Source: Aurantiochytrium sp. KH105 (lineage: Eukaryota; Sar; Bigyra; Thraustochytrida; Thraustochytriidae). From it: 64,000 bases of DNA. The position numbers were made by a program, and so were the translations under genes. This document shows positions 1 to 49,863 of this stretch, in pieces. Below the pieces are notes generated by a model. The model saw only the letters and a program-made list of their open reading frames with translations. It was not told where the DNA came from and made no database searches. Each line of letters opens with the position of its first letter. The first letter of the stretch is position 1. Location of the stretch: contig BGKB01000225.1 of NCBI GenBank assembly GCA_003116975.1, forward strand, positions 1 through 64,000, read 5' to 3'.

Positions 1-994
1 TCCAGCGAAATCGCGCATTTGCCGCTCTGGCATAGGTCTGTTACGCCTCGGCTACAATCTACTTGCGCGTGGCACTCGCAAGTGCGCCTGACCCATTCGC
101 TACCAGGAGAGTTTTTCATTGGAAACCGGCAACCGCGGAGGCGCGCCCGCGCCTCCTCTCCTCTCCTCCTCGCGCAGCGCCGCGCCGCGCTAGCAGGCAG
201 GCGGGCAGGCAGGCGGGTAAGCAGGCAGGCAGGCAAGCAGGCCGCGAGCCCCGCGCCGCGCGCCCCTGGAGGCGGCTGTGCCGCAGTGCCAGCTGCAGCA
301 GCGCGGTCGGTATCTTCGGAAGGGACGAAAAAGCATCGATCGATCGCGGCCTTCAGTGGTTCAAATCGGAGAAAAGAAAAAAACACCCAAAAAGCTTTCT
401 TTTTGAAACCTCGATTTGAACTTGAATGGACTGTGAATTTGAATTTGAATTTGAATTTGAACTCGAAACCTCGATTCAAACCGGGCAAAGAAAGAAAGAA
501 GGAAAAAAAGAAAGAAAGAAAGAAAGGCAAAGCTGAGGAAGGAAGGGAAGGAGAGGAGAGGAGAGAGAGGAAAGCAAGAAGGCAAAGCGGCAGAGCCCGG
601 TCGTCACGCAGGCGCGGGCAGGCAGCGCGCGCGGGCGGGCGGTCGCGAGCCCCGAGCCAGCCAGCCAGCAGCGGCGCGCGTCGGTCCCTCCCGCGGCGAG
701 CGGGCTGCGCGCGCGCGGGCGCAGGAGGAAGGGCAGGCAGGCGAGACGAGGCGGGCGAGCGTCAGCGGCTCCTCGCTCACATCCATCCCCTTCGTTCATC
801 CATCCTCTCAATCTATATCTTATCCGCCGCTCGCCGCGGGCTCGAGCGCGGCGTGAGGCGCTGCGCGGCGCGGCGCGGAGGAGGCAGCCGAGCGATACGC
901 GGGCCGAAGCGCGGCGAGCCGTGAGGCGACGTCCGAAACCCAGCGTCGGCCCCGTGCCCGACGACGGGAAGAGAAGAAGAACAAGAAAAAGGAG
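1..994. promoter_or_regulatory. 5' flank of the PPEF gene, simple-repeat rich
   Basis: No gene is supported here. The stretch holds AGGC/AAGC-type tetranucleotide repeats (about 188-243), a GAATTT hexanucleotide run (about 435-461), an AAAG-rich purine run (about 487-530) and AGCC repeats (about 657-673). The long ORFs on both strands consist of Arg/Ala/Ser-rich low-complexity sequence produced by these repeats and match no family. It is probably promoter plus 5' UTR of the downstream phosphatase gene. Confidence 0.5.
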
Positions 995-3900
995 ATGATG
1001 ATGTCTGACGCAGATGCCAGCGGGCAGCAGCAAGAGGGCCAGGACCAAAGCCAAGGCCCCGCTCCCGAACGCAGCTTCCAGGTGGGCGACCGGGTCGTCG
1101 CGCAGCGAAAGCTGGGCACGGTGCGTTTCTTTGGACCGACGGACTTTAAGCCCGGCAACTGGGTCGGTATCGAACTCGACGAGCCGACTGGCAAGAACAA
1201 CGGCACAGTCCAGGGCCGAACATATTTTCAAGCGGATGAAAACTGCGGCATCTTCGTGCCGGCCAAATACGTCGTACCGCACCAGCAGGACGAGATCGCC
1301 GCCGTCATGCTGCAGTGCAATCTGCGAAAAATGCTGGCCAAACGCAAGGTCAAGGCCCGTCAAGCCGCGCGCACGTGGAACATCCTTGACAACCATTACG
1401 AGGAGGTCGGCCTGCGCAAAGGACGCGCCGTGGAAAAGGCCACCAAGCGACTCAAGGCGAAAACCATCGTGCAGGAAAACCGCACGCAAATCTCAGACGC
1501 GATCGGAATGGAAGGCGTCAACGAGAACGAGAACAACGAGAAAGGCGACGGCGACGCCGCCATGGACACGTCTGGCGCCGCCGGCCCAGCGGAGTCGACG
1601 GCAGGGGCTGCCGACGGCGCCGAGAGCCTGAGCTCGGGCAGCGTCGATGAAGAAGATGAAGACGGTGATGATCTCTTCATGGGGGCCACCGTTGAGGAGC
1701 TGCAGCAGGCCGCCGCCGACGCGGTGGACGAGCTCCTCCCGGAAATGCTGTTTGCCATCAACGTCTCGCCAAGCTACACGGGTCCGAAACTGAACTTTCC
1801 GCTACGCCTCGAGCACATCCTTGAAATGCTCGACGCCTTCAAGCTCGACAAGGTCCTGCACTTCAAGTACTTTATGCTTCTCCTTCTATTTGGCAAGCGA
1901 CTGCTCGATGAGGAAAAGACAGTGCAGGACATTGACATTCCCGAGGGTGTCAAGCTGACCGTCGTTGGCGATACCCACGGCCAGCTCCAGGATCTCTTTA
2001 CCATCTTTACCATCAATGGCGTCCCCTCGGAAACGAACTGGTACCTCTTCAACGGCGATTTTGTAGATCGCGGACCTAAAGGCTGCGAGATCGTGGCCAC
2101 CATGCTTGCCTTTAAGATTCTCTATCCCAGGTGCGTCTTTTTGAACCGCGGCAACCACGAGGCGCGCGCCCAGAATGCCTGGATGGGCTTCGAGGAGGAG
2201 CTTCTCACAAAGTACGGCCATGACGTCGAGGCTGTCCTCATGGACCCCTCGACGCGACTCAGCCGCTCGCTGCGCCGCCCCAAGGCCCCTTCCAATGCCC
2301 CGCCTGGCTCGAACGCCTCCGAATCCTCGGACATGGAAACTGAGGAAAACGGCAACGCGACGGCGTCTGGCGCCAAGTCATCGGCCAACTCTGCTCGCCG
2401 GCCCAAAAAGAAAGTTCGCAGGAACTCGTTAGACCGCGCCACGGGCATGCGCGAAAAGATGAACATGTTTGGCCCTGGGGACCGACTCGCCTCCCTCAAG
2501 CTCTACATGCTTTGCCAGGCTACCTTTGATGCCCTGCCGCTCTGCGCGCTTATCCAGTCACGCGTCTTTGTTTGTCACGGAGGTCTGTTTCGGAACGAAG
2601 GCGTCAAGCTCGAGCACATTCGCGAAATCAACCGCAAGCGGGAACCTCCTCTCGAGGGAACCTCCTTTGAGGACCGCATCTACGAGGACCTTCTTTGGTC
2701 TGACCCCCGACCCACGGCAACATACCCGCGCCCATTGCGATACAAGCGGCCTTCGGATCGCGGCGCCGGCTGTGAGTTTGGTCCTCTCGTCACCAACAAG
2801 TTTTGTGCCACGAACCAGATTGCCCTCGTCGTGCGCTCGCACGAGTGCGTGCCCGAGGGTTTCGAAGTTTTACACAACGGCCGCCTGATCACCATCTTTA
2901 GTGCGAGTCGCTATTGTGGTACGCAAACGAACAAGGGTGCCTTTATCGCCTTTGGACCGGACCTGCAGCCAGAGATCCAGCAATTCTATGCTCACGCCAT
3001 CCAAAAGGGAACTTTTATGAGCGACGAGGAGCGCGAGGCAATGCTGGAGCGAGACGCCGTGAAAATGATCATCGAGAATATTTGCGACAAGCGAATCGAT
3101 CTCTACTGGTACTTTACGCAGAACGATACGGCGCACACGGGCCTTGTCACGCGCGTGGAGTGGGCTCACGGTCTGCAGTCGGTGCTGAACCTCGAAGTCC
3201 CCTTCCTGCATTACCAGTCGCAGCTTGCTGAGCTGGAGCCCAACGCAAAGATGATCAACTACACCAAGTTTCTTTCGCGCTGGCAAATCGGCGTCCGTCA
3301 GGAAGACTCGAGCTGGCAGGATGCCATCGTGCGACGTATCTGCGAAAAGCTGTACAGTATCGTTGGAGCAGATCTGGAGCGCGCATATCGCAAATTTGAT
3401 ATTAACAATGATGGCCGCGTGAGCTTTGACGAGTTCATGCGTACGTTGCGCTCCCTCAACCTCGGCCTTTCCGATCAGGAAATATTTGAGGTCATGCGCA
3501 TCATCGACAAGGACGACTCTGGAGCCATCGACTTCAACGAGTTTTCTTCTCGCTTCGAGGTCACTTTCAATGAGCTTGGAGACGGCGATGCCGCGGACGC
3601 AGGAGCTTCGGGCGCGGCCCCGCTCACCGCCGGGTCCGCCTCTGGGGCCACCGGGACGGGCGCTGCCGTTGTGGCTGCTGCAGCTGCCGAGACAGCTGCT
3701 GCCGATGGCGTCGCCGGCACACGCGGACCGGGTGGCACACGTTTGGCACGAACCCCGAGCATGTTCGAGATTGAGCAAATCACTGAGGCTGCCTTCCCGA
3801 ATCAGCCCAGCTCGCCTCGTAAGGCCAACAAGATGAAGCTTGATTGGATTAACATGGACAACTGGACCAAGGAGCATCTCAAGCTGATTGGTCAGGCTAT

Positions 3901-4639
3901 TTTCCAACGCACGGATTCGATTCGCGACGCCTTCAAGCGCTTCGATACAGAAGATAATGGGTACTTTACCATTGATCAGTGGGCTGATCGCCTCAAGTCT
4001 TGGCTCAATCTCGACCTCTCTCGACCGGACGCGGATAAACTCTTTAAAGCTATCGACACCAACGAATCGGGCCGTCTCTCAGCCATTGAATTTGTCGACG
4101 CCTTTCACGTGCGCGATCGCTCTTCATCGGCCAAGTCGTGGCAGCAGGGTGTGGTGCAGCAAATTGCCAATGCGCTCTACCAGAACCGCATCCACCTCAA
4201 GTCCGCGTTCCGCATGTTCGACGTGGATGGCAATGGTACCATTTCGGTTGAAGAATTTCAGTCTGGTATGGAGACAATCAATGAGTTGCTCGACAAACCT
4301 CTCTCCAAGACGGGTATCGAGGAATTGCGACGATCTCTCGATCGCAATGGCGACGGCATGATCGACTACCGTGAGTTTCTCGCTGGTCTGCATCTCGTGG
4401 ACAGCTCGGCCTCGCATCAGCTTTCACGTCGCGCATCTTCTTACATGGATCTCAATGATCCAATGTTTCAGCCGGCGGCACCTTCGGCAATGGCTTCTTC
4501 GGGAAGCAACGCCTCTTCGATCTCCTCTTCGTCGTCGTCCTCTTCCTCTTCCTCTGCGGCGTCGAGCGTAGTTTCCACGCCCGAGTCTGCTTCTGCCAAT
4601 GCGCAAGCTGATACCAGTATGGAGTTGGACACCGACTAG
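995..4639 (+). CDS. CAP-Gly / IQ / PPEF-type Ser/Thr phosphatase with six EF-hands
   Basis: A 1214-residue single-exon protein. Residues about 29-93 are a CAP-Gly domain (microtubule plus-end or tubulin-tail binding). Residues about 100-120 resemble a calmodulin-binding IQ motif. The phosphatase core runs from about 300 to 690 with all PPP metal and catalytic signatures: GDTHGQ (about 324), GDFVDRG, RGNHE, a VCHGG histidine and the late RSHE and SASRYC blocks. A basic/Ser-rich insert of about 90 residues lies inside the core. Six EF-hand loops follow (about 801, 837, 984, 1021, 1076, 1116: DINNDG, DKDDSG, DTEDNG, DTNESG, DVDGNG, DRNGDG), then a poly-Ser tail. PPEF/RdgC phosphatases normally carry an IQ motif and two or three EF-hands, so the doubled EF array and the CAP-Gly are extra. 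It should be a Ca2+-regulated phosphatase targeted to microtubules; the target is unknown. Three tandem ATGs open the ORF and the first is used. Confidence 0.95.
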   Translation: MMMSDADASGQQQEGQDQSQGPAPERSFQVGDRVVAQRKLGTVRFFGPTDFKPGNWVGIELDEPTGKNNGTVQGRTYFQADENCGIFVPAKYVVPHQQDEIAAVMLQCNLRKMLAKRKVKARQAARTWNILDNHYEEVGLRKGRAVEKATKRLKAKTIVQENRTQISDAIGMEGVNENENNEKGDGDAAMDTSGAAGPAESTAGAADGAESLSSGSVDEEDEDGDDLFMGATVEELQQAAADAVDELLPEMLFAINVSPSYTGPKLNFPLRLEHILEMLDAFKLDKVLHFKYFMLLLLFGKRLLDEEKTVQDIDIPEGVKLTVVGDTHGQLQDLFTIFTINGVPSETNWYLFNGDFVDRGPKGCEIVATMLAFKILYPRCVFLNRGNHEARAQNAWMGFEEELLTKYGHDVEAVLMDPSTRLSRSLRRPKAPSNAPPGSNASESSDMETEENGNATASGAKSSANSARRPKKKVRRNSLDRATGMREKMNMFGPGDRLASLKLYMLCQATFDALPLCALIQSRVFVCHGGLFRNEGVKLEHIREINRKREPPLEGTSFEDRIYEDLLWSDPRPTATYPRPLRYKRPSDRGAGCEFGPLVTNKFCATNQIALVVRSHECVPEGFEVLHNGRLITIFSASRYCGTQTNKGAFIAFGPDLQPEIQQFYAHAIQKGTFMSDEEREAMLERDAVKMIIENICDKRIDLYWYFTQNDTAHTGLVTRVEWAHGLQSVLNLEVPFLHYQSQLAELEPNAKMINYTKFLSRWQIGVRQEDSSWQDAIVRRICEKLYSIVGADLERAYRKFDINNDGRVSFDEFMRTLRSLNLGLSDQEIFEVMRIIDKDDSGAIDFNEFSSRFEVTFNELGDGDAADAGASGAAPLTAGSASGATGTGAAVVAAAAAETAAADGVAGTRGPGGTRLARTPSMFEIEQITEAAFPNQPSSPRKANKMKLDWINMDNWTKEHLKLIGQAIFQRTDSIRDAFKRFDTEDNGYFTIDQWADRLKSWLNLDLSRPDADKLFKAIDTNESGRLSAIEFVDAFHVRDRSSSAKSWQQGVVQQIANALYQNRIHLKSAFRMFDVDGNGTISVEEFQSGMETINELLDKPLSKTGIEELRRSLDRNGDGMIDYREFLAGLHLVDSSASHQLSRRASSYMDLNDPMFQPAAPSAMASSGSNASSISSSSSSSSSSSAASSVVSTPESASANAQADTSMELDTD

Positions 4640-30754: not shown

Positions 30755-31834
30755 ATGGCGCTCGCATGGCTGCGCAGAGCGCTCAAAGGGACGAGCTATG
30801 ACGAGGAGGGCAGGCTCGTCCCGCCGCTCAAGCGGCAGCGCGACGAGATGCACACGAGCGCGCACGCCGCCGCGCCCCAAGAAGAGCGCAAGGACAGCGA
30901 CGACAGCAGGCAAGTCGAGATCTTCAACCGCGAGGACCACCTCTGCACCAGCACAGGGGGGCCTGCGACTCCGAGCCCTTGCGCGAGCCCCTGCGCCAGG
31001 CAACTCGAAAATGAGCGAACGGCGGCCAAGGCTGCGCGCATCGAAAAGCTCGTCGTCGCACGCCTGCAGCGCGACAAGGAACTTCACCAACAGCTGGCCA
31101 AGTACTTTGGCATGCAGAGGCACGTCGTGGTCACCTCGGCCAGCTTTGACATGTGGACCGACGTCCTTGCGTGGCGGCCCATGTTCGAGGGACTCGCCGC
31201 GCTTTGCAAGCATGTCATGAGCGCCACAAAGCGAGAGGTTGCCATTGTCGAAATTCTTACGGTGCTCCTCGTTCTCTTGCACGCGGAGCGCTTCGCTGCG
31301 CTCGTCTCGCTCGATGATCTGGCTGCAATTCTCGCCGATCTCGCTGGAGACGAGACTGTCAACGCAACAAGCGGTTTCGCCACACGCGAGACAGGCATTC
31401 TTGTGCAGCAGCAACAGCAGCACCAGCAGCAACAACAGCAGCAACAACAACAACAAGCGCACCACCACCACCACCACCACCATCACCACACGCACACACA
31501 TGGGAATGCGCATGGCGCAGATGCAGCGGTACGCGGCGCGGCTGCGAGCCTTCCTGGCTGGGACAAGGCGAAATTTTTCGAAATTTTCGAATCCAAGGTT
31601 CTCGAGGGCGAGGTGCGCGGAGACGCCGTCTCCGCAGAGACTCTGGAGAGCATGCTCGCCGGCATGGAGCCTGGCATTGACTCCTCATTTCTCGCCTATG
31701 CCACCTTTACCCTTTTCTCAACTTTTGCCAAATCATGCAAGACCAACCTGACCCTCAGCGAGCTTGCGCAGCTCGTTAACGCCCTCGACCTCGCTGTCTC
31801 CGCGCAGCGTTCCCCGCGCTCCGTGCGCTCATGA
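30755..31834 (+). CDS. Uncharacterised polyQ/polyHis protein
   Basis: A 359-residue protein from ATG 30755 (context AGGATGGCG). I recognise no family. It opens with a short amphipathic segment (MALAWLRRALKG) and a charged linker. A helical region at about 90-200 follows, with WTDVLAWRPMFEGLAALCKH and a hydrophobic stretch IVEILTVLLVLLHAERFAAL. A glutamine run and a block of ten histidines then His-Thr repeats lie at about 220-250. A second helical region (about 265-345) closes the protein. The complexity of the two helical regions and codon-like composition support a real gene. The polyQ/His linker is encoded by CAG/CAA and CAC/CAT codons at 31408-31500. Confidence 0.7.
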   Translation: MALAWLRRALKGTSYDEEGRLVPPLKRQRDEMHTSAHAAAPQEERKDSDDSRQVEIFNREDHLCTSTGGPATPSPCASPCARQLENERTAAKAARIEKLVVARLQRDKELHQQLAKYFGMQRHVVVTSASFDMWTDVLAWRPMFEGLAALCKHVMSATKREVAIVEILTVLLVLLHAERFAALVSLDDLAAILADLAGDETVNATSGFATRETGILVQQQQQHQQQQQQQQQQQAHHHHHHHHHHTHTHGNAHGADAAVRGAAASLPGWDKAKFFEIFESKVLEGEVRGDAVSAETLESMLAGMEPGIDSSFLAYATFTLFSTFAKSCKTNLTLSELAQLVNALDLAVSAQRSPRSVRS

Positions 31835-34896: not shown

Positions 34897-37800
34897 ATGA
34901 ATACCGTGAAGAAGCTCACTGCCCGCATGAAGCGGGCGCCTCGGGCCCATGGTGATGACCATGCGCCTTCTCTCGCGCATGATGCGGCCAATTAAGATGA
35001 CGCGTCGCTCGGTTACCTTTCGGACAATGACGAAGACGTAAACGAGGACGTCCATGAGCATCTTGACAATCATGGGGACGAAGAAGTGGACGAAGCGTAC
35101 GACGGAAGCAAGGCCGGTGACGCGTACAGAGAGAGAGATGAAGGAGAGAGCGATGACGATGACGACGATGAGGACGAAAATTATTATGATGACTATGGCG
35201 GCGGCGGTGGCGATAGCGGTGAAGACGGGCAAGAAGAAGAGGACGATGACGACGAAGATCGCGCCGGTGACGGGAGCGAAGATAAGTCGCCCGAAGAAGA
35301 AGGCCACGAGGAAGAAGGTCAAGAGGAAGAAGGCCTCGAGAAAGGTCTCAGCGGGCAACGTGCGGTCGAGAAGGCAATCGATCTGATGCGGAACGGCGTC
35401 AAAACGATTGAGTACGTTGAAGTGCTAACTAAGGGGATCGAAAGGTTTCGTGCGATTTGACCTATTGACATTTTTTTTTCCAAATTATACTCAGTCTCAC
35501 CAAACGTTCTATCGGCGACGAAGGAACTATTGCGCTGGGAGAAGAGCTTGGTACGAACACCTCACTCGTTTCGTTGAAGTAAGTTAGCGTTTGAGCGAAA
35601 TTTGGTTTGATGGAAGCGCGCGCATGTTTGCGCAAGGATAGAACCGGAGTGGTCGAATTGAGTGCAATATTACACAATGCCAGGAGGACACTGACTTTAT
35701 GTGCTTGTCGCCATCACCCAGTCTCGAAAAGAATGGGATCCATGGAGAGGGCGGCGCTGCTCTGGCCGAAGCCCTGCACCAGAACTCCTCGCTTTCCTCG
35801 CTTTCGTAAGTCAAAGCCTGTCGCGGAGTTGATTAGAGTACAGTACCAATAAGAGCTGCTCTGGTAAAGGCAGCTGAATATTAGCGTCGTAACGACGCCG
35901 TTATACCACAAGCAAGAGACTGACAACCACAGACTTTCAATGAGTGCAGTCTCAAGTGCAACAGCATTGGTGTCGATGGCGCGGTTGCTTTTGCTCACAC
36001 ATTGAGCGTGAACATCGCGCTCTGCTCGCTGAAGTAAGTTGAGCCTCAATCTGTCGTTTTGACACAAAAATGGCCTCGTGCAAATATTGCCGGAATCCTC
36101 TAGTCGAGCACTCAGCTCCGGTGCCATCTTTTCGGTGTCAAGGTCACATCAAGCGAAGAGAGAAATTCCTGGAAATGAGTTGATCGAAGACTCACATGAC
36201 TCGCTCATTGTCACGACGTCAACAGTCTTGGAAGCGACTGGGACCAGAACCACAATAACATTGGAGACGATGGGGTCTTGGCGCTCGTCGATGCTCTGGG
36301 CGACAATACCGTACTTACGTCCTTGGAGTAAGTTGGTGGCTTGAGATAGGTGCAGAGGACTTGTTACGGCACACCTGCGCCAGATTCGGAAATTACAAGA
36401 CTGACATCTCGAGTTGTTTTCACTGGCAACACACAGTCTCAGCTTCAACGGCATCAGCGAGGTTGGCGGCAAAGCAATCGCAGACTTGCTCTCCACGAAC
36501 ACGTCGCTGCATATTCTCAGGTAAGCTCTGATTCAATCTTGACAATGGTCAACGAGGCAACATGCATATATTTCTGCGTGAAGGAAGGCAGGTGGGCGTT
36601 CGTGGCGGAGAGCAGAAAGGCGGGACTGCGCCAAGACGACGGCGACGGCGACATGAGGGTGGACACTGACAGCCATTTCGCGCTCATCACTGAATGCAAT
36701 CAATGCAATGAATGCCATGCCACACCACAATCATCATGCACAGTCTTTCCTCGAACAACATCGGCGACGATGGCGCCGTTGGTCTCGGGGAAGGCTTGGG
36801 CAAGAACAGCTCGCTTACGTCTTTGTAGTAAGTTGGTTCGGTTGTGTTTTGCTGCGTTTGATTGGAGGCAAGACTTTGGATTGGACAACGCAAGAAAGTT
36901 NGCTGCGAAAAACATCGGCGTTGCTGGTCAGATGACAATTGCCGAGGTGCTCTTGACAAAGAATGGTGGCTTGCGTGAAATCGAGTAAGTTGTGTTTGGG
37001 CATGGTTTTTGCCCTGAAGAAAGTATGAAATTTCTGCATACTAATCTCGCCGTTCTATTCTTCAATCAGTGGCCTACCTGAGCTACCATCAAGCTCATGG
37101 ACCGAGATGCTCCAAGCTTCGAAAGGCGACGCTCAGGTGAAACGAATTTGGGAGTATCTCTTTGACAAGGATGAAGAAAAATGGACGTCGGCCGCGCATG
37201 AGCTGGCCGGGGAATCGGCGCACATATTTGCGGTCCTTCTTATTGTTCTCACTCAATTTGACGCGGGGACGCAGGAGACGCAGATGCGTCTCGAGGATCC
37301 CGAATTTTGGCTTTGAAGCACGAAGATGCGAACGAAAAGCAGAAAGAGGGACAGGATGAAGACGCCAATCTTCCCTTAATCCATGCTCTGTTTGACTGTC
37401 ACGCGACCAGAACGGAATTTTCCCTTCTCGAACGTTTTTGCGACGAAGTTCTCATGACGTGCCTGTCTCTCAAAGATGGTCTATCGCTGATGAAGGCTGA
37501 AGACGGCGGTGGTCGAACGGTTCGTTCACTTGCGCTCACAAATAAAAACACCAAGGGGTGGGCCAAAACGTATGGCACATATCTCGATCGTTACAGTGTC
37601 ATGGAAGGCCCTCCAGTCCACGAATCGAAATCATGTGCGGTGCACTACGCGACGGATATTCAAACAAACAAAGCAGTGGCGCTCAAGATCATGCGAGAAA
37701 AAAAGCAGTACAATCGTGAGATTCGTGCACGCACAGCTGCAGACGGCGGAGATGCGAGTCCTAAAGGGTGTTTGCCACTTCTTGACCATGTGGACGAAGA

Positions 37801-40066
37801 GCTATGCCTGGTCATGCAAAGAGGATCGCGTTCGCTTTTCGAAGCCATCAACACGGAGCGCTTTGCTGGCCGCGATCTGCGAAAGATCCGCATGATCGCA
37901 TACAAGATTCTTTCTGCAGTCAAAAGTCTGCACGACAGCGGTCGCATTCATGGCGACATCAAGCCGCGCAACGTTGTGCGTGTTAGTGCTCCAAAGCAAC
38001 ACACGTTTTTGAATGAAGAAAAAGGAGGTCGTCTCGCGGTGCCAGACGAATGGCGAAAAAATGTGACTGGAGAGCGTCCTGACGCCATCGACGACGAAGA
38101 TTGGCAACTCATTGATTTGGACGCATCGGCACCGATTTCGACGCCGGAGAAAAAAAGGGTCGTCACGGAAAAGGTGAGCACTGGCTATGCAGCCCCCGAA
38201 TTAGCCAAATGGCATTTCTTGCCTGAAGCAAAAAGGGACAAGACGCCGCTGGCTGACCCGGCGATCGATGTTTGGGGCTTTGGCGTGGTTCTTTTCCAGA
38301 TGCTCTCGGGCACAAAACTTTTCATGGTCGACGAGTCCGACGACAATCTCGTGGCAAGACACGACAAGGTGGAGCTCATGAATTGGCTTGCGCTGGACGA
38401 TGAACGTCTTCATCGCATCAAGAGTCGTCATGAGAAAGATGAGGAGAAGGAGGGCGAGAACGACGGTGAGATGATCGGGGATGAGGATAGCGTGAAGACA
38501 GATGGTCTCGATGCGGATACTTTCCAGATCGAGGCCGCGCGCGACTTGGTGCGATTTTGTCTTCGCGGCGATGCGAACGAACGCATAAAAATAGATCAAA
38601 TTCTCAACGAGCATCCGTTTTTTGAGACCCTTCGCAACCTAAGCCATGAGAACGAAGAGGTAGATACTACGGCCACCAAGGTCGCGCGCGCGAACAAGCG
38701 CGATTTCTCTCGTTTCTCTCGCCGTGTGATGAGCCTTCACAGGCGCGTGATTCCCAAACGATTCAGTCTTTTTGGTCGCACGACCAAGTCGCGACTGAAC
38801 AGAAATACAAGGTCGAGTATCTTTTACGAGGAACGTGCCCATAACGAACTCATTGCGCTCCCGACATACCACTTTTTCCTGTCGCACGTGCAGTCGCAGG
38901 CGGCAGGGACTGTCAAGGACCTTGCAGCTGGCCTTGATCGCCACCGAATGTCATCTTGGGTGGATATGAATGCCACTGAGATCCACCTCCAGAGCATGCA
39001 TCGCGGCATCCTTTCGTCTCAGTGCTTTATCATGGTGCTCACCAAAGATGTACTGTTTCGGCCCTACTGTCTCGCCGAGTTGCATTATGCCGTTGAGTAC
39101 TTTGGCCGAGCAGAAGGTGGGCTGGCGAAGCACATTTTCTTCATTGTCGAAGAAGATACCCGATTTCACCCATGGAACCATCATAACGTGCCATGGCATT
39201 GTTCTTCCAAAGATCTAGTTGCGGGCGAGGACCTTTCGCATCGACAAGGAGCTGGCGATGACAGAGCTTTCAGTCCTAGCTCAGGCTTGAGCAAGCTGGG
39301 CGCATGCACCTTTTGGTCAACGAGGCAAGACGATGCGTTGCAGCATCCTGGCGGCGACGAGGCAGATGCAGAAACACATGTATCTAAACTTGAGACTTTG
39401 TTGAAGGAGCTAGAGCTGCAGGACTGGAGAGGAGTTCCTGTGCAGCCAGAACAGATACTGAACAATGCGGAGACGGCTCTGTCAGAATGCAAACGTATCC
39501 CATATCGTCGACGTCTCTTTGAGGAAGATGCAATGCTGCGTGTTCTGGCAGAGAGAGCAGGATTCCAAGCCATCCCACATCACATTGGAAAAAATGCTAC
39601 AAACGAGGAGAAGGAAGTTCTTCGACTGGCAGTGGTGGGCAAACAAAGCTCCAAGGCAGTCAAAAGCTTTGGACACAAGCTTCGTGAGCAAAAGGTTTCT
39701 GTGGATGATGCCAATCCTCAAGTCATCGTGGTCATACTTGAGAAAGGTTGCTGGGATGACGTCCAAACATTTTGGGAGGACCAATCCCAAAAAGGAAACG
39801 ATGCTGAGGAAATGGGAGCTCCTCTGCTTGCAGTCGCGGTCTGCGGTACTGATGAGGAGTGGGATTTCAAGTACAAGAATAAGTTTAAAAACCCTGCACT
39901 CCGTTCTATTCTCTTTGACCGCCTCGAGGTGCTCATGTGGCGGGATGCTCCTGGAGCTAAAAACCGGGATCCCGAAAAGTACATTGTGGAACACGAGGAA
40001 CCAGCGCTCATCACGGAGCTTTGCTCACGTGCGAAAATGTTGCAGCGGCCTCCTCTCAAAACCTGA
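34897..40066 (+). CDS. LRR - protein kinase - TIR receptor-like gene (nine exons, with sequence defects)
   Basis: I read one gene joining 34897..35411, 35495..35578, 35722..35805, 35950..36033, 36226..36327, 36437..36520, 36744..36827, about 36899..36984 and 37070..40066. The order is acidic N-terminus, seven RI-type LRRs, a helical linker (KRIWEYLFDKDEEKWTSAAH), a protein kinase domain and a TIR domain, then a weak second TIR-like region. All LRR introns have GTAAGY donors and AG acceptors and are in phase 2, and the spliced frame is LRR-perfect. Three problems remain: an in-frame TAA at 34993 (or a 45-nt intron 34952..34996 that would remove it), an N at 36901 where the phase is one base short, and a one-base break near the T run 37305-37308. 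If these are sequencing faults the gene is intact; if real it is a pseudogene or two genes. No signal peptide or membrane segment is visible, so a cytosolic sensor is likely. Confidence 0.7.
35412..36984 (+). repeat. Exon-per-repeat leucine-rich repeat array
   Basis: Seven exons each encode one LRR. Exons at 35495, 35722, 35950, 36437 and 36744 are exactly 84 nt (28 residues); the one at 36226 is 102 nt; the last, near 36899, is about 86-87 nt. Each starts with TCTC or TCTT (the last is obscured by N) and ends in a phase-2 codon followed by GTAAG. Translations follow the pattern L-x-x-N-x-I-G-x-x-G-A-x-x-L-x-x-x-L-x-x-N-x-S-L-x-S-L, for example LSSNNIGDDGAVGLGEGLGK. This is the ribonuclease-inhibitor/NLRC class of LRR. 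Intron lengths range from about 70 to 223 nt. Confidence 0.88.
37307..40066 (+). CDS. Kinase-TIR part of the receptor-like gene (single open frame)
   Basis: About 919 codons with no internal stop; the frame is open from 37262 and has no ATG at its left end, which supports its being a downstream part of a larger gene. Kinase: a degenerate Gly-rich loop, VALKIM (the Lys that binds ATP, about residue 126), RIHGDIKPRNVV (HGD in place of HRD, about 212-223), LIDLDAS (DLD in place of DFG, about 269), GYAAPELA (about 292-299) and DVWGFGVVLFQMLSG. Linker, then TIR at about 520-620: YHFFLSHVQSQ, SSWVDMNATEIHLQSM, ILSSQCFIMVLTKDVLFRPY and CLAEL. The Glu in NATEIHL sits where TIR NADases carry the catalytic Glu. 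The C-terminal 150 residues (VIVVILEKGCW, ALRSILFDRLEVLMW) resemble a diverged second TIR. Confidence 0.88.
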   Translation: MALKHEDANEKQKEGQDEDANLPLIHALFDCHATRTEFSLLERFCDEVLMTCLSLKDGLSLMKAEDGGGRTVRSLALTNKNTKGWAKTYGTYLDRYSVMEGPPVHESKSCAVHYATDIQTNKAVALKIMREKKQYNREIRARTAADGGDASPKGCLPLLDHVDEELCLVMQRGSRSLFEAINTERFAGRDLRKIRMIAYKILSAVKSLHDSGRIHGDIKPRNVVRVSAPKQHTFLNEEKGGRLAVPDEWRKNVTGERPDAIDDEDWQLIDLDASAPISTPEKKRVVTEKVSTGYAAPELAKWHFLPEAKRDKTPLADPAIDVWGFGVVLFQMLSGTKLFMVDESDDNLVARHDKVELMNWLALDDERLHRIKSRHEKDEEKEGENDGEMIGDEDSVKTDGLDADTFQIEAARDLVRFCLRGDANERIKIDQILNEHPFFETLRNLSHENEEVDTTATKVARANKRDFSRFSRRVMSLHRRVIPKRFSLFGRTTKSRLNRNTRSSIFYEERAHNELIALPTYHFFLSHVQSQAAGTVKDLAAGLDRHRMSSWVDMNATEIHLQSMHRGILSSQCFIMVLTKDVLFRPYCLAELHYAVEYFGRAEGGLAKHIFFIVEEDTRFHPWNHHNVPWHCSSKDLVAGEDLSHRQGAGDDRAFSPSSGLSKLGACTFWSTRQDDALQHPGGDEADAETHVSKLETLLKELELQDWRGVPVQPEQILNNAETALSECKRIPYRRRLFEEDAMLRVLAERAGFQAIPHHIGKNATNEEKEVLRLAVVGKQSSKAVKSFGHKLREQKVSVDDANPQVIVVILEKGCWDDVQTFWEDQSQKGNDAEEMGAPLLAVAVCGTDEEWDFKYKNKFKNPALRSILFDRLEVLMWRDAPGAKNRDPEKYIVEHEEPALITELCSRAKMLQRPPLKT

Positions 40067-43000
40067 ACCCCTTTTGAAACAATTGTATTCCTTTTGCATC
40101 CTTGCTCATCGCTCAAGAGAAGCTCGACATTGAATCTGATCGTATGCTGTATGAAGGGTCCCACTTTGACATTTCTTGAATTCCCCGCGCCACAAGAGCC
40201 TCTCTTAGGTTCAAAGTGATGAGTTGCACAGGTGCAAGTGGACAAAACAATGGGTCTTGGTAAGCAAAAATTATCTCGCCAATTTGCAGCATCTGATCCT
40301 TGACGGATTTTATGAGCCGAGGCATATTTTAGAAGTCCTTTGCCAAGGTTTGCGGCACGATGTGAGTGGCTGAAGGCATGTTGCGCATCCGAGACACGCT
40401 TAAAGACCTCTGCAGATCAGAAGCTAGCGCGAATCCAATCATAGCAGCAGCAGCAGCAGCAGCAAAAGCGACACAAGACAGCGGCAGTAGAAATAGTAAA
40501 AGGATGTCTCTTGCTTGACTTCAATAGATGGATGATCCAGGAAGTGATCCTCTCTGGGAATGCTAGACCAGCTCGGAAGCTCATCATACCAAGGCCTAAC
40601 GGTCATGACACGTAGTGGCTGAGCGATGACTATCAGGCATGCTCGTCGTGTGCCTGAAGAATGTTGCTTGCACACTTTGACTTTGAATGCATCTGTGTCC
40701 TTTCTATCTGAAGCTTCGAGAGATCTTGTCGTGGCCTCCACATTAAATTAAAAATGCGCTGACGCAACAAGAAGGAAAGATGCGTCAACGATCTGCAAAC
40801 AGAAGTGGATCAATTTGGCAAATGTATTCTTTTTGATCTGGTCTATGTCACTTTACACGGGAGTTCACTATGTGATCGAGCCAAAATGGAAGAAGATCAC
40901 TAATCGCTAGATGTGGGACAACAAGTTTGCACAAGCAACAACAAACAAGGTACTCATAATTTTTCGTTGACAAGCAGTCCCTGAAAGGGCAGCCTCATTT
41001 GCATAAGATGAAAAGTTATGGCGCCGTCTGTTGCCCATGCTCCGTGCACCATATAAGACTTTCCACAAAGGCTCTTTGCAACCCCACTTCTTCATTTCCC
41101 CTCTGTCCGCACGAGAACGGTACAACTAAGTCAGAAAAGGTTCAGTGCCGCGGGTGATGACGCAAACCAGAAAGTCCTCCGCTGTCCCCCGTAAGGTGTG
41201 CAAATCCGGCAGGTCCCATCTTACTTGACCCAGTGTTCGCGCTAGGACGGGGCGAGATACGGACTTTCGCCGCTGTTTGCGACGCCGCTTTAGGCAGGAC
41301 CTCGCGTCGTAGTCACCTCAACTCCCTGCCAAATCGTCGAATCGAATCGAATCAAATCAAATCAAATCAAAGCTAGGCAAATCAGATCAAAGAATCCAGA
41401 GCAAACCAAACCGAGGCCGCGGCCCTCGCCATCCTGGCTCTCGCAAGAGCTCGGGGGCACCCCGAAGGACGAACCGCCCTGCCCCGCGCGCGACAGAAAC
41501 GGCGAGACGCAGCTTCCCCGCCCTCGTTCACAATGGGGACGAAGGCACTTCTGTGGTGGCCTCGCCGGCGACCGCGAGCGCGTCGTAGACTGCGGTCTCG
41601 AGGAGGTGAGGGAACATGGCGAGCGCGATGGAGAGCGAAAAGTCGAAGGCACCTTCGGGTCTATGGTCGGCGATAATCAGCGGATGCGTGGCAGCAGTGA
41701 GTTAGTTACGCGTTGAAGATGGTGGGTGTACCACGTGTGTGTGCAGCCTTGACGAGCGGCGTGTGATGTGGCTGCAAGGATGGCTGTGGACGGATGTATT
41801 TTGCTGCGAGCGAGCGAGCGTGCGTGCGTGCGTGCGTGCGTGTGAGCGAGCGCGCACACATCGCTCTTCATCATCTTCCCCTTCCTCTACTTCTCCTTCT
41901 TCATCTTCCGGCTTCTGCTCAGCCGCCGCTTGTTCGGATCATCCTCGACCCTTGACAGACCAACCGACCGACCTGCACCAACCGACCGGCCGGCCCGATC
42001 GACCAAGACGCGCAACGCTGTGAGGCCACTCCGTCCTGACAGAGCGAGCCGTGCCTTCCGCAGTCGCCAGGGCTCTTCTCAGGTCGGTCCCCTGCGAGCC
42101 CTGGCGCGCTGCAGCTTCTTCACTGCCGCCACACCGAGATCAAGGGTTTAGTTTGTAGCGCAGTCAGCCGCCGCAGCCGAGCCCCGTCGCGCCGCGCCAA
42201 GGCCGGAGAAGGAGAGAAAAAAGGAAGCCCGTCTCGACTCTGGTGTCCGCTGGCCCTGGCGGATGTCGGCTTGCTCATTCTGCTCGCCGCCTGATCAAAG
42301 TGCGATTCCTCGCCCGCTCGCTCGCGTCTTTGCTTGCTTCTTGCTTGCTTGCTTTCTTGCTTTCGTCTGCCAGCTTGTTCTCTTGCGTCGGTGTCGATCT
42401 GGCGACCCTGGCGGTGGTAGAGTCATACTGTCTGCCATGGCTGCTGCTACAAAATGAGAAAACCAGAAAACAAAGAAGGAAAAGTAGAAAAGAAAGAAGC
42501 AGAAAAGCGCAGAAAAGCAGGAAAAAGGGGAAAGGCCTCTGTTCGTTCGCTGCTTTCGCCGTCTCGCTGCGCGCGAAGAGGCGGGGCAGCGCGTGCCGGC
42601 AGCAAAGCCGGAGTCGAGTCGAGTCGCGTCGCGTCGCGCCGCGGCCTCGGAGCGGAGCCCGGCGTCTGGCCCAGCCAGCCAGCGAGCCCCGCGCGAGCGA
42701 GCGAGCGAGCGAGCGAGGCACGCGCGCGCGCGCAGGCACGCCGCAGGCAGGCTCGCAGCCGGCCAAGGAGGAGGAGCCGAGCGTCTGCGCAGCGGGAGCG
42801 ACGCGCACGAGGGAGGCGTCATCCATCGGCGCCAGCAGAGCAGAGCAGAGCGGAGCAGAGCGGAGCGGAGCAGAGCGGAGCGGAGCAGGGCAGCGCGAGG
42901 GCGGCCGCGAGAGGCGGGCCCCGGCGACGCGCCGAGGACGAGGAGAGGAGCGCGGCAGCGCCGCTTGCAGCAAGAGCGCGGTGGGTGGAGCGGGTTGAGT

Positions 43001-47325: not shown

Positions 47326-49165
47326 TCAGGTGACAAGTCGCTTTGACGTAAAGGCAGAGACGGCAATAGCCATGGCTTGGAAAGGCGAGATCGGATGGCG
47401 AAAGTCCAGCGAGAAACGGTCCTTGAGCACCTTGCCAAAGCGCAGACAGACAGTGTCTGCTCCAAACTCCTCCTCCATTGTCTCATTTTGCGCTTGCGGC
47501 ACAAGCATAAAGTTCTTCTTGGAGGCCATCTTTACGCGCGAATTAAAATTGAGCGTCCACGCTTGAAGCTCCTCGTTCCATTGAGGCTTCAAGGTGTCAA
47601 ACTCGAGCAGTTCAGAGAGCTCCTCGGACTCTACCGCGCGATACTCGTCTCCTTTGCGAGCTTGCAGCTTTTGAATTAGATTCATATCCTGAGCATGTCG
47701 AGTTCGCGTTGTGCCCTTATAGCGATCGGCCAGCGAACGTCGCTGACCGCGCAAGCCTTGTTCGGGATCCCAGCGCGGAAGCACGGCCTTGAGGCTGTTA
47801 GGGACACGACCCAAGACATTGTGTTCGTACATGATGTAGCCCAGCTCATGGTGCCGTATCTTTCGCGTGGACGTTGGGTTCGAGACACGATAGTCATGCA
47901 CAGTGAGTGCGGTGCCTGCAAAGTTTTGTTCCATACAGCCCAGGTACCGTGACGACTCGGGGTGCATCGGAATGTCCTTGATGTCCCCATCGAGCTTAAT
48001 GTCTTGCGAATTGTGGAAGATGATGCGGCCTTTGCCGCTCCGTGGAAGCACAGCGCCGAGAAGAAATTTATTGTCTGACTCACGGAAAAAGTGAAGCGAG
48101 ATGATCTTCTCGCTGCGCCATCGCAGAATATAGCCATACACCATGTCCATGTGCTCGGGCGGCTCGTAGATTCTGCTTTTTTGTTTGTAAATAATGCTGC
48201 GCGCCTCGGAGGCGTCCTCGTCGCCCACGCCAAAGGCATCCTGTATTCTGGTTGCGGTGCGAAAGCGAATGCGATACGGACCGGCCTTTTGAGCCTCTTT
48301 AAGCATTTCCTCGATCCTCTCCAAACACAGACCTGCGCAAGATTCTCCATTGATGTTGACAAGGAAGTCACCAACGTGAATTTCGTTCGACCATGGCCGA
48401 TCCCCGTCACTCCCGCCAGCCGCACGCGGGCCTCCGTCGAGGAACTCGGAACGAGGGAGTTCGTCCACGACGGCCGACTTGCCCAGCCAGTCGTCATCAA
48501 AGGTTAGACCAGACTTGCCCGGAAGAAATTTCACTTCGTAAATCTCATCTGGGGGTGGTGGCAGCGGTGCAAAGGTTTGCGGGAACGGCCTTGCTGCTGG
48601 GGCCGCGATAGCTCGTTGACCTCCAGGCGAAGGTGGCTGGATGTTGACTAAAGATTTGACATTCATGAACGGATCGTACGAGTCCAAACGCGACCGGTCG
48701 CCTTCGTCATCGCTATCTTCGCCGAGAAACTCAGACGGGTCAACCAGACCTGTGCCGCATTGCGAGCAAGCTTCAATCTCAAGAGGACAGAGAGTCCCGC
48801 ACGAGGTGCAGTAAATCTCTTCGGGGATCGCCTCTTCCTCCTCATCGTCGTCGTCATCATCGTCATCGTCGTCGTCGTTGTCGGCTTCTCCACCGCTGAT
48901 GCCGCGGTCGGCACTGGCGGCTTGCTCGATGCCCACGAGGTCATCTGTTTCAACGAGTTGACCATCGCTCCGTCGTCCCTTNGCCCGCGCCCTCGCCCGC
49001 GCCCGCGCCGCCCGCGCCGCCCGCGCCGCCCGCGGCGGCTCGCGCGGCGGGATGGCGCGGCGGCGGCGCCTGCGAGCCCGCGCCGAAGGCGCCGCGCGGG
49101 GCGGCCGCAGAGGCCGCGGCGGCGCCGCCCAGCAGGCCGCCCTCCTCGTCGCTGTCGCTGTCCAT
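47326..49165 (-). CDS. Zinc-ribbon / PDZ / Tubby-domain protein (frame broken by an N)
   Basis: From ATG 49165 (MDSDSDEEGGLLGG) to stop 47326 the length is one base over a multiple of three, and the frame changes exactly at the N at 48982, so the N must hide an indel. The order is an acidic then Ala/Gly-rich N-terminus; a poly-Asp/Glu run; a four-Cys zinc ribbon (YCTSCGTLCP with CSQCG, about residues 115-140); a PDZ domain (about 205-300: VKFLPGKSGLTF, VGDFLVNINGESCAG); and a Tubby C-terminal domain (about 330-613: HHELGYIMYEHNVLG, LQAWTLNFNSRVKMASKKNF, DRFSLDFRHPISPFQAMAIA). Tubby domains bind PI(4,5)P2 and, in animals, deliver cargo to cilia. PDZ plus Tubby is not a standard combination. 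The gene shares a 158-bp promoter with Dad1. Confidence 0.85.
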
Positions 49166-49323
49166 GGCGCCGCTCCCGCCTCCGCGACACACCGCGGCGC
49201 TCGAGGCGCGCGAATCCAAATCTGAATCCAGGTCTGCAAATCCAAATCTGCCTCGCCCGCGCTCGCCTCCCGCGCCGACCTCGCCCACCTCGAGCTCGAG
49301 CTCGACGCCGCGGCGGAGGAGGG
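49166..49323. promoter_or_regulatory. 158-bp divergent promoter with AATCCAAATC words
   Basis: Only 158 bp separate the Tubby-like ATG (-) and the Dad1 ATG (+). Two AATCCAAATCT/CAAATCCAAATCTG words lie at about 49209-49247, resembling the ATTCAAATC cluster at 17474-17560. A CGAGCTCGAGCTCGA near-palindrome lies at about 49290-49306. Confidence 0.55.
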
Positions 49324-49863
49324 ATGGACGCCGACAAGCGCGCGGACGCGGACGCCTTCCGGACGGAGCGCGACCATCTCCTCGGAGAGATCGTCCAGGT
49401 GCGTGAGGAGAGAGTCGAGGAAAGGGCGCAACCGTCGAGGCGGAGACGGAGACGGAGACGGCGCGCGAGGGCGGCGTGCTCCTGGGGTCGTTGGGGGACG
49501 AAGGGGGAGATGAGCGGCCGCGGCGCGGAGAAAGCGTGTGCGGGCGGATGCGGAAAAGGGGGTGCAGGTGGATTTTGGGCGGAAAGAGGAAATGGTGGAG
49601 ATGGAGGCGATGCGGCAGACGCTTTGGCGAGACGGCGAGCGACGGGTGAGGGCTTGGCGCAGAAGGGATGTACTGACGATGATTTGCAAACGCGTACACT
49701 TTGCTTCGTGTTATACAATGATGATGATCTCCAACAGGGATTGCGCGACGCCACGTCCGAGATGCGCAAGCTGAACCGTAACATGGAGCATGTTGTTGAG
49801 ATCGGCAAGGGTTTCGAGCGTTCTGCCGTGCTCTGGGAGGCTTTCTGCAAGGATCTCAAATAA
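49324..49863 (+). CDS. DAD1: DASH/Dam1 complex subunit Dad1, two exons
   Basis: The coding sequence joins 49324..49398 and 49738..49863, giving a 66-residue protein. Exon 1 encodes FRTERDHLLGEIVQ and exon 2 begins GLRDATSEMRKLNRNMEHVV and ends EIGKGFERSAVLWEAFCKDL. These match Dad1 of fungi: the E-R-x-x-L-I-x-E-I start, the LNRNLE-V core and the VGKEFE...LW..FY end, with the normal very short length. The intron (339 nt) has GTGCGT and CAACAG borders and phase 0. Dad1 is a helix of the Dam1/DASH ring that couples kinetochores to depolymerising microtubules. The single-frame ORF in this place is different and spurious. Confidence 0.9.
   Translation: MDADKRADADAFRTERDHLLGEIVQVREERVEERAQPSRRRRRRRRRARAACSWGRWGTKGEMSGRGAEKACAGGCGKGGAGGFWAERGNGGDGGDAADALARRRATGEGLAQKGCTDDDLQTRTLCFVLYNDDDLQQGLRDATSEMRKLNRNMEHVVEIGKGFERSAVLWEAFCKDLK

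Follow-up and report, generated by a model that had tools for sequence, protein, structure and literature searches.

A candidate family of LRR-kinase-TIR receptors in the thraustochytrid Aurantiochytrium, with repeat cassettes common to ROC-COR-TIR genes

In brown algae, candidate immune receptors of the LRR-ROCO type (LRR, leucine-rich repeat) are encoded by genes with 72-bp LRR exons and phase-2 introns, which are subject to exon shuffling and show selection at sites on the concave face (PMC11378527). The LRR genes of Tetrahymena consist of tandem in-phase exons of 90 bp with phase-2 introns, and their near-identical units are mixed by ectopic recombination (PMC6564038). In vertebrate NOD/NLRC proteins, the exons mostly encode one 28-residue LRR each and preserve the frame (PMC6642158), while in fungal NLRs that carry highly conserved WD, ANK or TPR repeats, the repeats evolve in concert and diversifying selection acts on a few surface codons of each (PMC4986451). 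Here, we describe a gene family of Aurantiochytrium sp. KH105, starting from a locus at positions 34,897–40,066 of a 64,000-nt stretch of its genome (contig BGKB01000225.1, assembly GCA_003116975.1; hereafter the window, to which positions refer unless another contig is given). The predicted product of this locus combines an acidic N-terminus, LRRs, a protein kinase domain and a TIR domain, and the family appears to add a new case to the known immune-type receptor repertoires. Contigs of this genome are given as C numbers, the window contig being C225.

The family resembles the brown-algal LRR-ROCO genes in its stramenopile host, in having one LRR per exon, in its phase-2 introns and in apparent exon shuffling, but its exons measure 84 bp rather than 72 bp. 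Moreover, that study finds LRR-ROC-COR as the sole ROCO structure of brown algae (PMC11378527), whereas here the LRRs lead into one of two modules, kinase-TIR or ROC-COR-TIR, which have cassettes in common. The Tetrahymena genes share tandem in-phase exons, phase-2 introns and mixing between genes, but they have 90-bp exons, number in the thousands and are associated with a retrotransposon, and the accessible part of their description holds no kinase-TIR module (PMC6564038). Fungal NLRs likewise feature concerted repeats, few diversified surface codons and a receptor with an effector domain, but have no LRRs and use a NACHT or NB-ARC switch; vertebrate NOD/NLRC proteins share the arrangement of one LRR per frame-preserving exon, but have a NACHT switch and neither kinase nor TIR. 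To our knowledge, the fungal repeats are not separated by introns, and the vertebrate LRR exons are not hypervariable tandem copies. The principle is therefore a known one, but the family joins it to another effector, and its cassettes are common to two effectors. In a literature search on thraustochytrid or labyrinthulomycete receptors, protist TIRs, LRR-exon shuffling and ROCO proteins with TIR, with subscription journals mostly outside its reach, none of the matches listed describes an LRR-TIR receptor from thraustochytrids or labyrinthulomycetes, or the order LRR-kinase-TIR.

In the window, kinase and TIR lie in one open reading frame (ORF) of 934 residues on the forward strand (P0001; 37,262–40,066). 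Both the kinase domain (37,637–38,623; residues 126–454) and the TIR domain (38,873–39,151; residues 538–630) exceed their Pfam cut-offs (Pkinase: E 9e-22, 78.2 bits, cut-off 31.7; TIR_2: E 3.7e-8, 34.3 bits, cut-off 28), which rules out a chance origin of the TIR call, and they are the only families that Pfam finds in this ORF. A sequence search of the PDB with the TIR domain alone gave nothing at E up to 1, and the matches listed in a fold search with the whole predicted model are kinases. Pfam scans matched neither ROC nor COR in the window gene, and neither NB-ARC nor NACHT in the ORF, the exon 1 piece, the seven LRR exons or the linker.

Upstream, on the same strand, lie an acidic first exon with a phase-2 end (34,897–35,411) and seven LRR-type exons, at 35,495–35,578, 35,722–35,805, 35,950–36,033, 36,226–36,327, 36,437–36,520, 36,744–36,827 and about 36,902–36,984. 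They are mostly 84 nt long (the fourth has 102 nt), are separated by phase-2 introns and encode one LRR each; symmetric phase-2 introns with one LRR per exon are as expected of exon-shuffled LRR receptors. Scanned singly against Pfam, four of the seven match LRR_6, all under the cut-off (E 0.24, 0.0014, 0.078 and 0.0021 for the second, fourth, fifth and sixth), and the other three, the last of them degenerate, gave no match; a ComX match in these scans is chance-like and was dismissed. Their identity as LRRs instead follows from the array units and four proteins of Hondaea fermentalgiana, which reach 42–65 bits with LRR_6. The sixth exon belongs to a cassette of intron and LRR exon (342 bp; 36,555–36,896), copies of which stand in tandem at paralogous loci. 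The last exon (exon 9; 37,070–40,066) holds a linker, the kinase, the TIR domain and a C-terminal region of alternating β/α elements (39,623–40,045; residues 788–928) without a Pfam match. For residues 520–934, the best 8000 candidates scored contained relatives in three Hondaea proteins and, at that sensitivity, none elsewhere.

An earlier note on this DNA had read the locus as nine exons with an acidic N-terminus, seven LRRs, a kinase and a TIR in a single reading path. The acidic exon is there, profile searches bear out kinase and TIR, and the exon and repeat counts agree with the sequence as assembled. However, seven is a minimum: at a single N (36,901), an assembly joint within the array, an array intron breaks off after its first part and the last LRR exon sets in midway, its 5' end lost, so that sequence must be missing there and the LRR count of this copy is a lower bound. 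The reading path itself is broken, by this joint, by an in-frame TAA in exon 1 (34,993–34,995) and by a frame shift in exon 9 at about 37.31 kb.

The architecture recurs in relatives. Among 11 homologs of P0001, eight come from H. fermentalgiana; by Pfam, seven of these have kinase and TIR and the eighth is partial. In three of the eight (P0002, P0004 and P0008), LRR, kinase and TIR follow each other in one predicted protein, the TIR of P0004 falling below the Pfam cut-off, and P0003 has a similar acidic N-terminus by eye. In the genome of Aurantiochytrium itself (76 Mb, 367 contigs), P0001 has at least 76 match rows (best 49 of 184 candidates scored), and by manual count kinase and TIR share an open frame at no fewer than 23 places on its contigs, the window among them; many of these form allele-like pairs, and several other matches hold stops. 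Paralogs have the open kinase-TIR frame 3' of LRR exons. Accordingly, the proposed domain order recurs at other loci, and the absence of orthologs with this fusion, which the earlier note would have counted against it, is contradicted by the Hondaea homologs. Its premise of a lineage lacking NLRs is not supported: the genome gives 17 NACHT matches (15 above the cut-off) and two NB-ARC matches in long frames. Since control prokaryotes also yield NACHT matches in 11 of 14 and NB-ARC matches in 6 of 14, such matches alone do not make NLRs. At least 150 TIR_2 matches are present as well (best 150 of 258 candidates). Many of them lie in long open frames, and the TIR repertoire predicted from them, part of which is ROC-COR-TIR, is very large for a protist.

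More distant relatives place the kinase in varying company. In P0010 and P0011, both environmental proteins, a related kinase precedes a TIR domain. A search from P0011 found P0067 (environmental, 608 aa), in which a related kinase is followed by CHAT, kinases with LRRs in front in P0066 and in P0069 from Phaeocystis, where the region preceding the kinase is also similar, and HEAT repeats before the kinase in P0068 from Chrysophaeum. As judged from P0067, the related kinase is joined to different effectors. What P0010, P0011, P0066, P0067 and P0069 share with the window family is the related kinase, followed by TIR or CHAT or preceded by LRR; none of these five scanned protist proteins combines LRR, kinase and TIR. 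TIR and CHAT serve as effectors in NLR-like systems, and LRR and HEAT repeats act as sensors. With effectors behind it and sensor repeats in front of it across these relatives, the kinase seems to sit where the switch sits in NLR-like systems.

The LRR cassettes form large arrays. The unit at 36,555–36,896 has 79 matches in the genome, and a 33-nt exon core has 103 matches at up to three mismatches, versus none for the reversed control. On C69, 9.5 copies of a 341-bp unit stand in tandem (89% matches), with an N run inside the last part of the array, and C116 carries two arrays, of 5.3 and 3.6 copies. On C9, at least 50 exon-core matches, among 100 listed, fall at 107,222–126,195, all on the strand of the flanking acidic exon (127,550–127,948) and kinase-TIR ORF (103,790–106,552); if C9:103,790–128,047 were one gene, it could span about 24 kb and encode some 50 LRRs or more.

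Most unusual of all, and beyond what the earlier note could show, such hypervariable cassettes are not confined to kinase genes. Four further loci (C342, C303, C90 and C101) carry cassettes of identical type in front of a different ORF. On C342, this ORF matches Roc (1.4e-15), COR-A (4.5e-11) and TIR_2 (9.1e-15) in Pfam, and those on the other three contigs are 94% identical to it; at least 64 match rows were found in the genome (best 53 of 239 candidates scored). We compared cassette sequences from three of these four ROCO loci, leaving out C90. In a young set of 24 units (15 from kinase genes and nine from the three ROCO loci, with C9 and C116 excluded by choice), distances between and within the two gene classes are nearly the same for exons (0.160 versus 0.168), upstream introns (0.058 versus 0.056) and downstream introns (0.112 versus 0.108), and with shuffled class labels a separation as large as the observed one arises in 72%, 74% and 21% of trials, respectively. 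For seven of the nine ROCO units, the nearest intron elsewhere lies in a kinase gene, but it is always the same unit, number 4 of C57. Over its first 69 nt, the array intron of the window matches introns from both classes without a single difference, namely those of kinase genes on C57 and C69 and of a ROCO gene on C101. Tandem units, distances and the lack of class structure among young units together suggest that near-identical units were exchanged within and between genes.

Variation within the cassettes is concentrated in the exon. In the exon analyses, exons with stops or off-pattern LRRs were excluded (in one step only the latter), and of 11 exons of C9, 8 were kept in that step; in the intron-exon comparison, 29 of 31 array units, and 15 of 16 close units, had enough flanking sequence. 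Among the 16 close units, the exon differs by 0.176, versus 0.063 and 0.088 for the introns. Codons 2 and 3, right after the first Leu of the exon, are near saturation (0.59–0.73 per site), set against homogeneous introns; codons 5, 8, 9 and 26 are the next most variable, and Leu 1, Asn 4, Gly 7, Leu 14, Leu 18 and Leu 24 are almost invariant. By the LRR consensus LxxLxLxxN, we take codons 2, 3, 5 and 26 to be on or beside the concave strand and codons 8 and 9 to be off it. The prominence of codons 2 and 3 recurs in 15 other array exons (0.55 versus 0.15, with codons 8, 9, 25 and 26 about equally variable) and in nine ROCO-gene exons (0.53 versus 0.09). It is less marked in two old subfamilies (0.72 versus 0.41 in 13 exons; 0.71 versus 0.45 in 10 exons). 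In the 15 close units with flanks, the variable codons, a set picked after a first look (2, 3, 5, 8, 9, 26 and the split one), differ by 0.483 per pair, the other codons by 0.079 and the introns by 0.064 and 0.096, and the exon exceeds both flanks in 84 of 105 pairs. Within these units, the variable codons show no correlation with the adjacent introns (Mantel r 0.005 and 0.013), nor do the two flanks with each other (r -0.17); an exchange of short pieces would lead one to expect this. The predicted LRR sensor would vary mainly at a few codons near its putative binding surface.

How such a receptor might work can be sketched as follows. An LRR solenoid of variable length would bind a ligand on its concave face, and binding would free or cluster the kinase-TIR end of what is presumably a single transcript's product. 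The kinase would act as the switch, in the place held elsewhere by NB-ARC, NACHT or a ROC GTPase, and the signal could be phosphorylation, NAD+ cleavage by clustered TIRs, or the recruitment of other TIRs for scaffolding. Consistent with an active kinase, K142, E153, D232, N237 and D285 are retained, and the expected set of VAIK Lys, C-helix Glu, catalytic Asp, Asn and Mg-binding Asp is complete; Glu 606, which we take to be at the TIR catalytic position, is present in 15 of 18 aligned rows. With each LRR on a self-contained cassette of intron and exon, new specificities could arise through recombination that duplicates, removes and mixes cassettes, both inside a locus and from one locus to another, also across the divide between LRR-kinase-TIR and LRR-ROC-COR-TIR genes, and through selection that diversifies the surface residues. 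Only tentatively do we go as far as a single recombining cassette pool that serves two unrelated chassis, a combinatorial repertoire renewed by ongoing and possibly mitotic recombination, and a kinase that replaces the NTPase switch of NLRs.

Several observations weigh against this picture. On the side of the effectors, the DFG motif reads DLD and the ATP loop has few glycines, so that kinase activity is at most a prediction, while Gly replaces the TIR glutamate in 3 of the 18 rows and a Glu at this position is found in scaffold TIRs too. As for the cytosolic location, the earlier claim that the protein has no transmembrane segment holds for the kinase-TIR part, where the highest 19-residue hydrophobicity mean is 1.36, but less so for the linker between LRRs and kinase, in which a borderline stretch (37,203–37,259; 19 residues) has a mean of 1.66; the usual transmembrane threshold is 1.6. 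Maxima in seven Hondaea proteins range from 1.33 to 1.80, and those above 1.6 (P0005, P0007) peak within the kinase or C-terminal region; P0002 and P0004 reach at most 1.46 and 1.55 over their whole length, versus 1.66 in the window linker. A self-contained cytosolic alarm protein is plausible, but the borderline stretch weakens "cytosolic" and a membrane form may occur. On the side of the cassettes, variation is not restricted to the concave strand, since the off-strand codons 8 and 9 are nearly as variable; the choice of codons 2 and 3 was made on the first 16 exons, and the replication sets are small and related. Furthermore, across all units, with the older ones on C9 and C116 included, upstream introns are closer between ROCO units (0.039) than between kinase and ROCO units (0.074). 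Contig ends and N runs also sit in the arrays (C57, C29, C217 and C300 start or stop inside them), and the assembly is weakest exactly there. Lastly, the data would also suit a role in recognizing self, mating type or food, and the window copy appears damaged, as described below. With all this weighed, we put somewhat better than even confidence in a family of receptors that are probably cytosolic, probably immune in role, and diversified by cassette exchange between two chassis.

Among other explanations of the family, it is unlikely, if conceivable, that the variable receptors serve the recognition of self or of mating partners, in the manner of fungal HET-D/R type proteins. Fungal NLRs with concerted repeats and selected surface codons do include genetically identified incompatibility genes (PMC4986451), and the allelic copies at the window locus differ in cassette number and effector. 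The size of the family and its TIR expansion agree equally well with pathogen sensing, however, and we know of no incompatibility in thraustochytrids, for which no search was made. That the arrays are neutral tandem repeats, diversified by replication slippage or unequal crossing-over without a selected function, appears improbable: copy number varies between loci and alleles, and with older units included the exon is above both flanks in just 219 of 406 pairs, but neutrality predicts equal divergence of exons and introns, at odds with both the excess at the variable codons and the 84 of 105 pairs among close units. Slightly more improbable still is that LRR array and kinase-TIR are separate genes, neighbors by chance. 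The frame shift in the window does lie between them; yet they share a strand at the loci read, linker-to-kinase frames are unbroken in paralogs, and single predicted Hondaea proteins hold LRR, kinase and TIR.

A separate matter is the window copy itself, as opposed to the family. Its exon 1 has an open frame of 154 aa, versus 181–416 aa in all nine other long genome matches; the longer frames fit read-through at each of those loci but do not prove it. Exon 9 meets a stop at 37,316, with the kinase-TIR frame offset by one, and the linker-to-kinase frame is uninterrupted in four near paralogs. For the tested flanks, C215 has the sole other near-full-length genome match on either side (95% and 90% identity), and we therefore take it as the other haplotype. 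This allele (C215:48,766–52,424) has an open exon 1, with a sense codon in place of the TAA, is likewise unbroken in exon 9 and carries two more cassette matches (one partial) beyond the one in the window. It retains the acidic exon, LRRs and C-terminal domain, but lacks residues 93–770 of P0001, i.e. kinase and TIR, with the frame preserved. The window copy is probably a pseudogene or misassembled, and both haplotypes may be without a working receptor unless the assembly is at fault. We consider it slightly better than an even chance that the locus is a true pair of decaying pseudogenes without receptor function, given the stop and frame shift on one haplotype, the loss of kinase and TIR on the other, and further broken copies with internal stops on C95, C171 and C15. 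Against such decay, the kinase-TIR frame is otherwise open over 934 codons, and one-base faults also come from assembly, in a gene that contains an N.

Elsewhere in the window, a second and last N, at 48,982, lies inside a Tubby-like ORF on the minus strand (47,329–49,710). One ORF at 857–4,636 combines CAP-Gly, a calcineurin-like phosphoesterase, a PPP5 region and several EF-hands, and two short dispersed repeats (42,803–42,963 and 31,396–31,490) recur on dozens of contigs with about 50–130 bases per match. Neither Rfam nor ARAGORN, the latter run with the bacterial code, gave a match in the 64-kb window.

If our favored reading of the family as an immune-type receptor repertoire is true, receptors that are hypervariable and built from cassettes extend to the labyrinthulomycetes, where they take the order LRR-kinase-TIR. 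This suggests that, in an NLR-like receptor, a kinase can stand in for the NTPase switch. Industrial cultivation is practised with some thraustochytrids, and cassette exchange between two gene classes, if true, would make the recombinational renewal of a protist receptor repertoire testable in a culturable cell.
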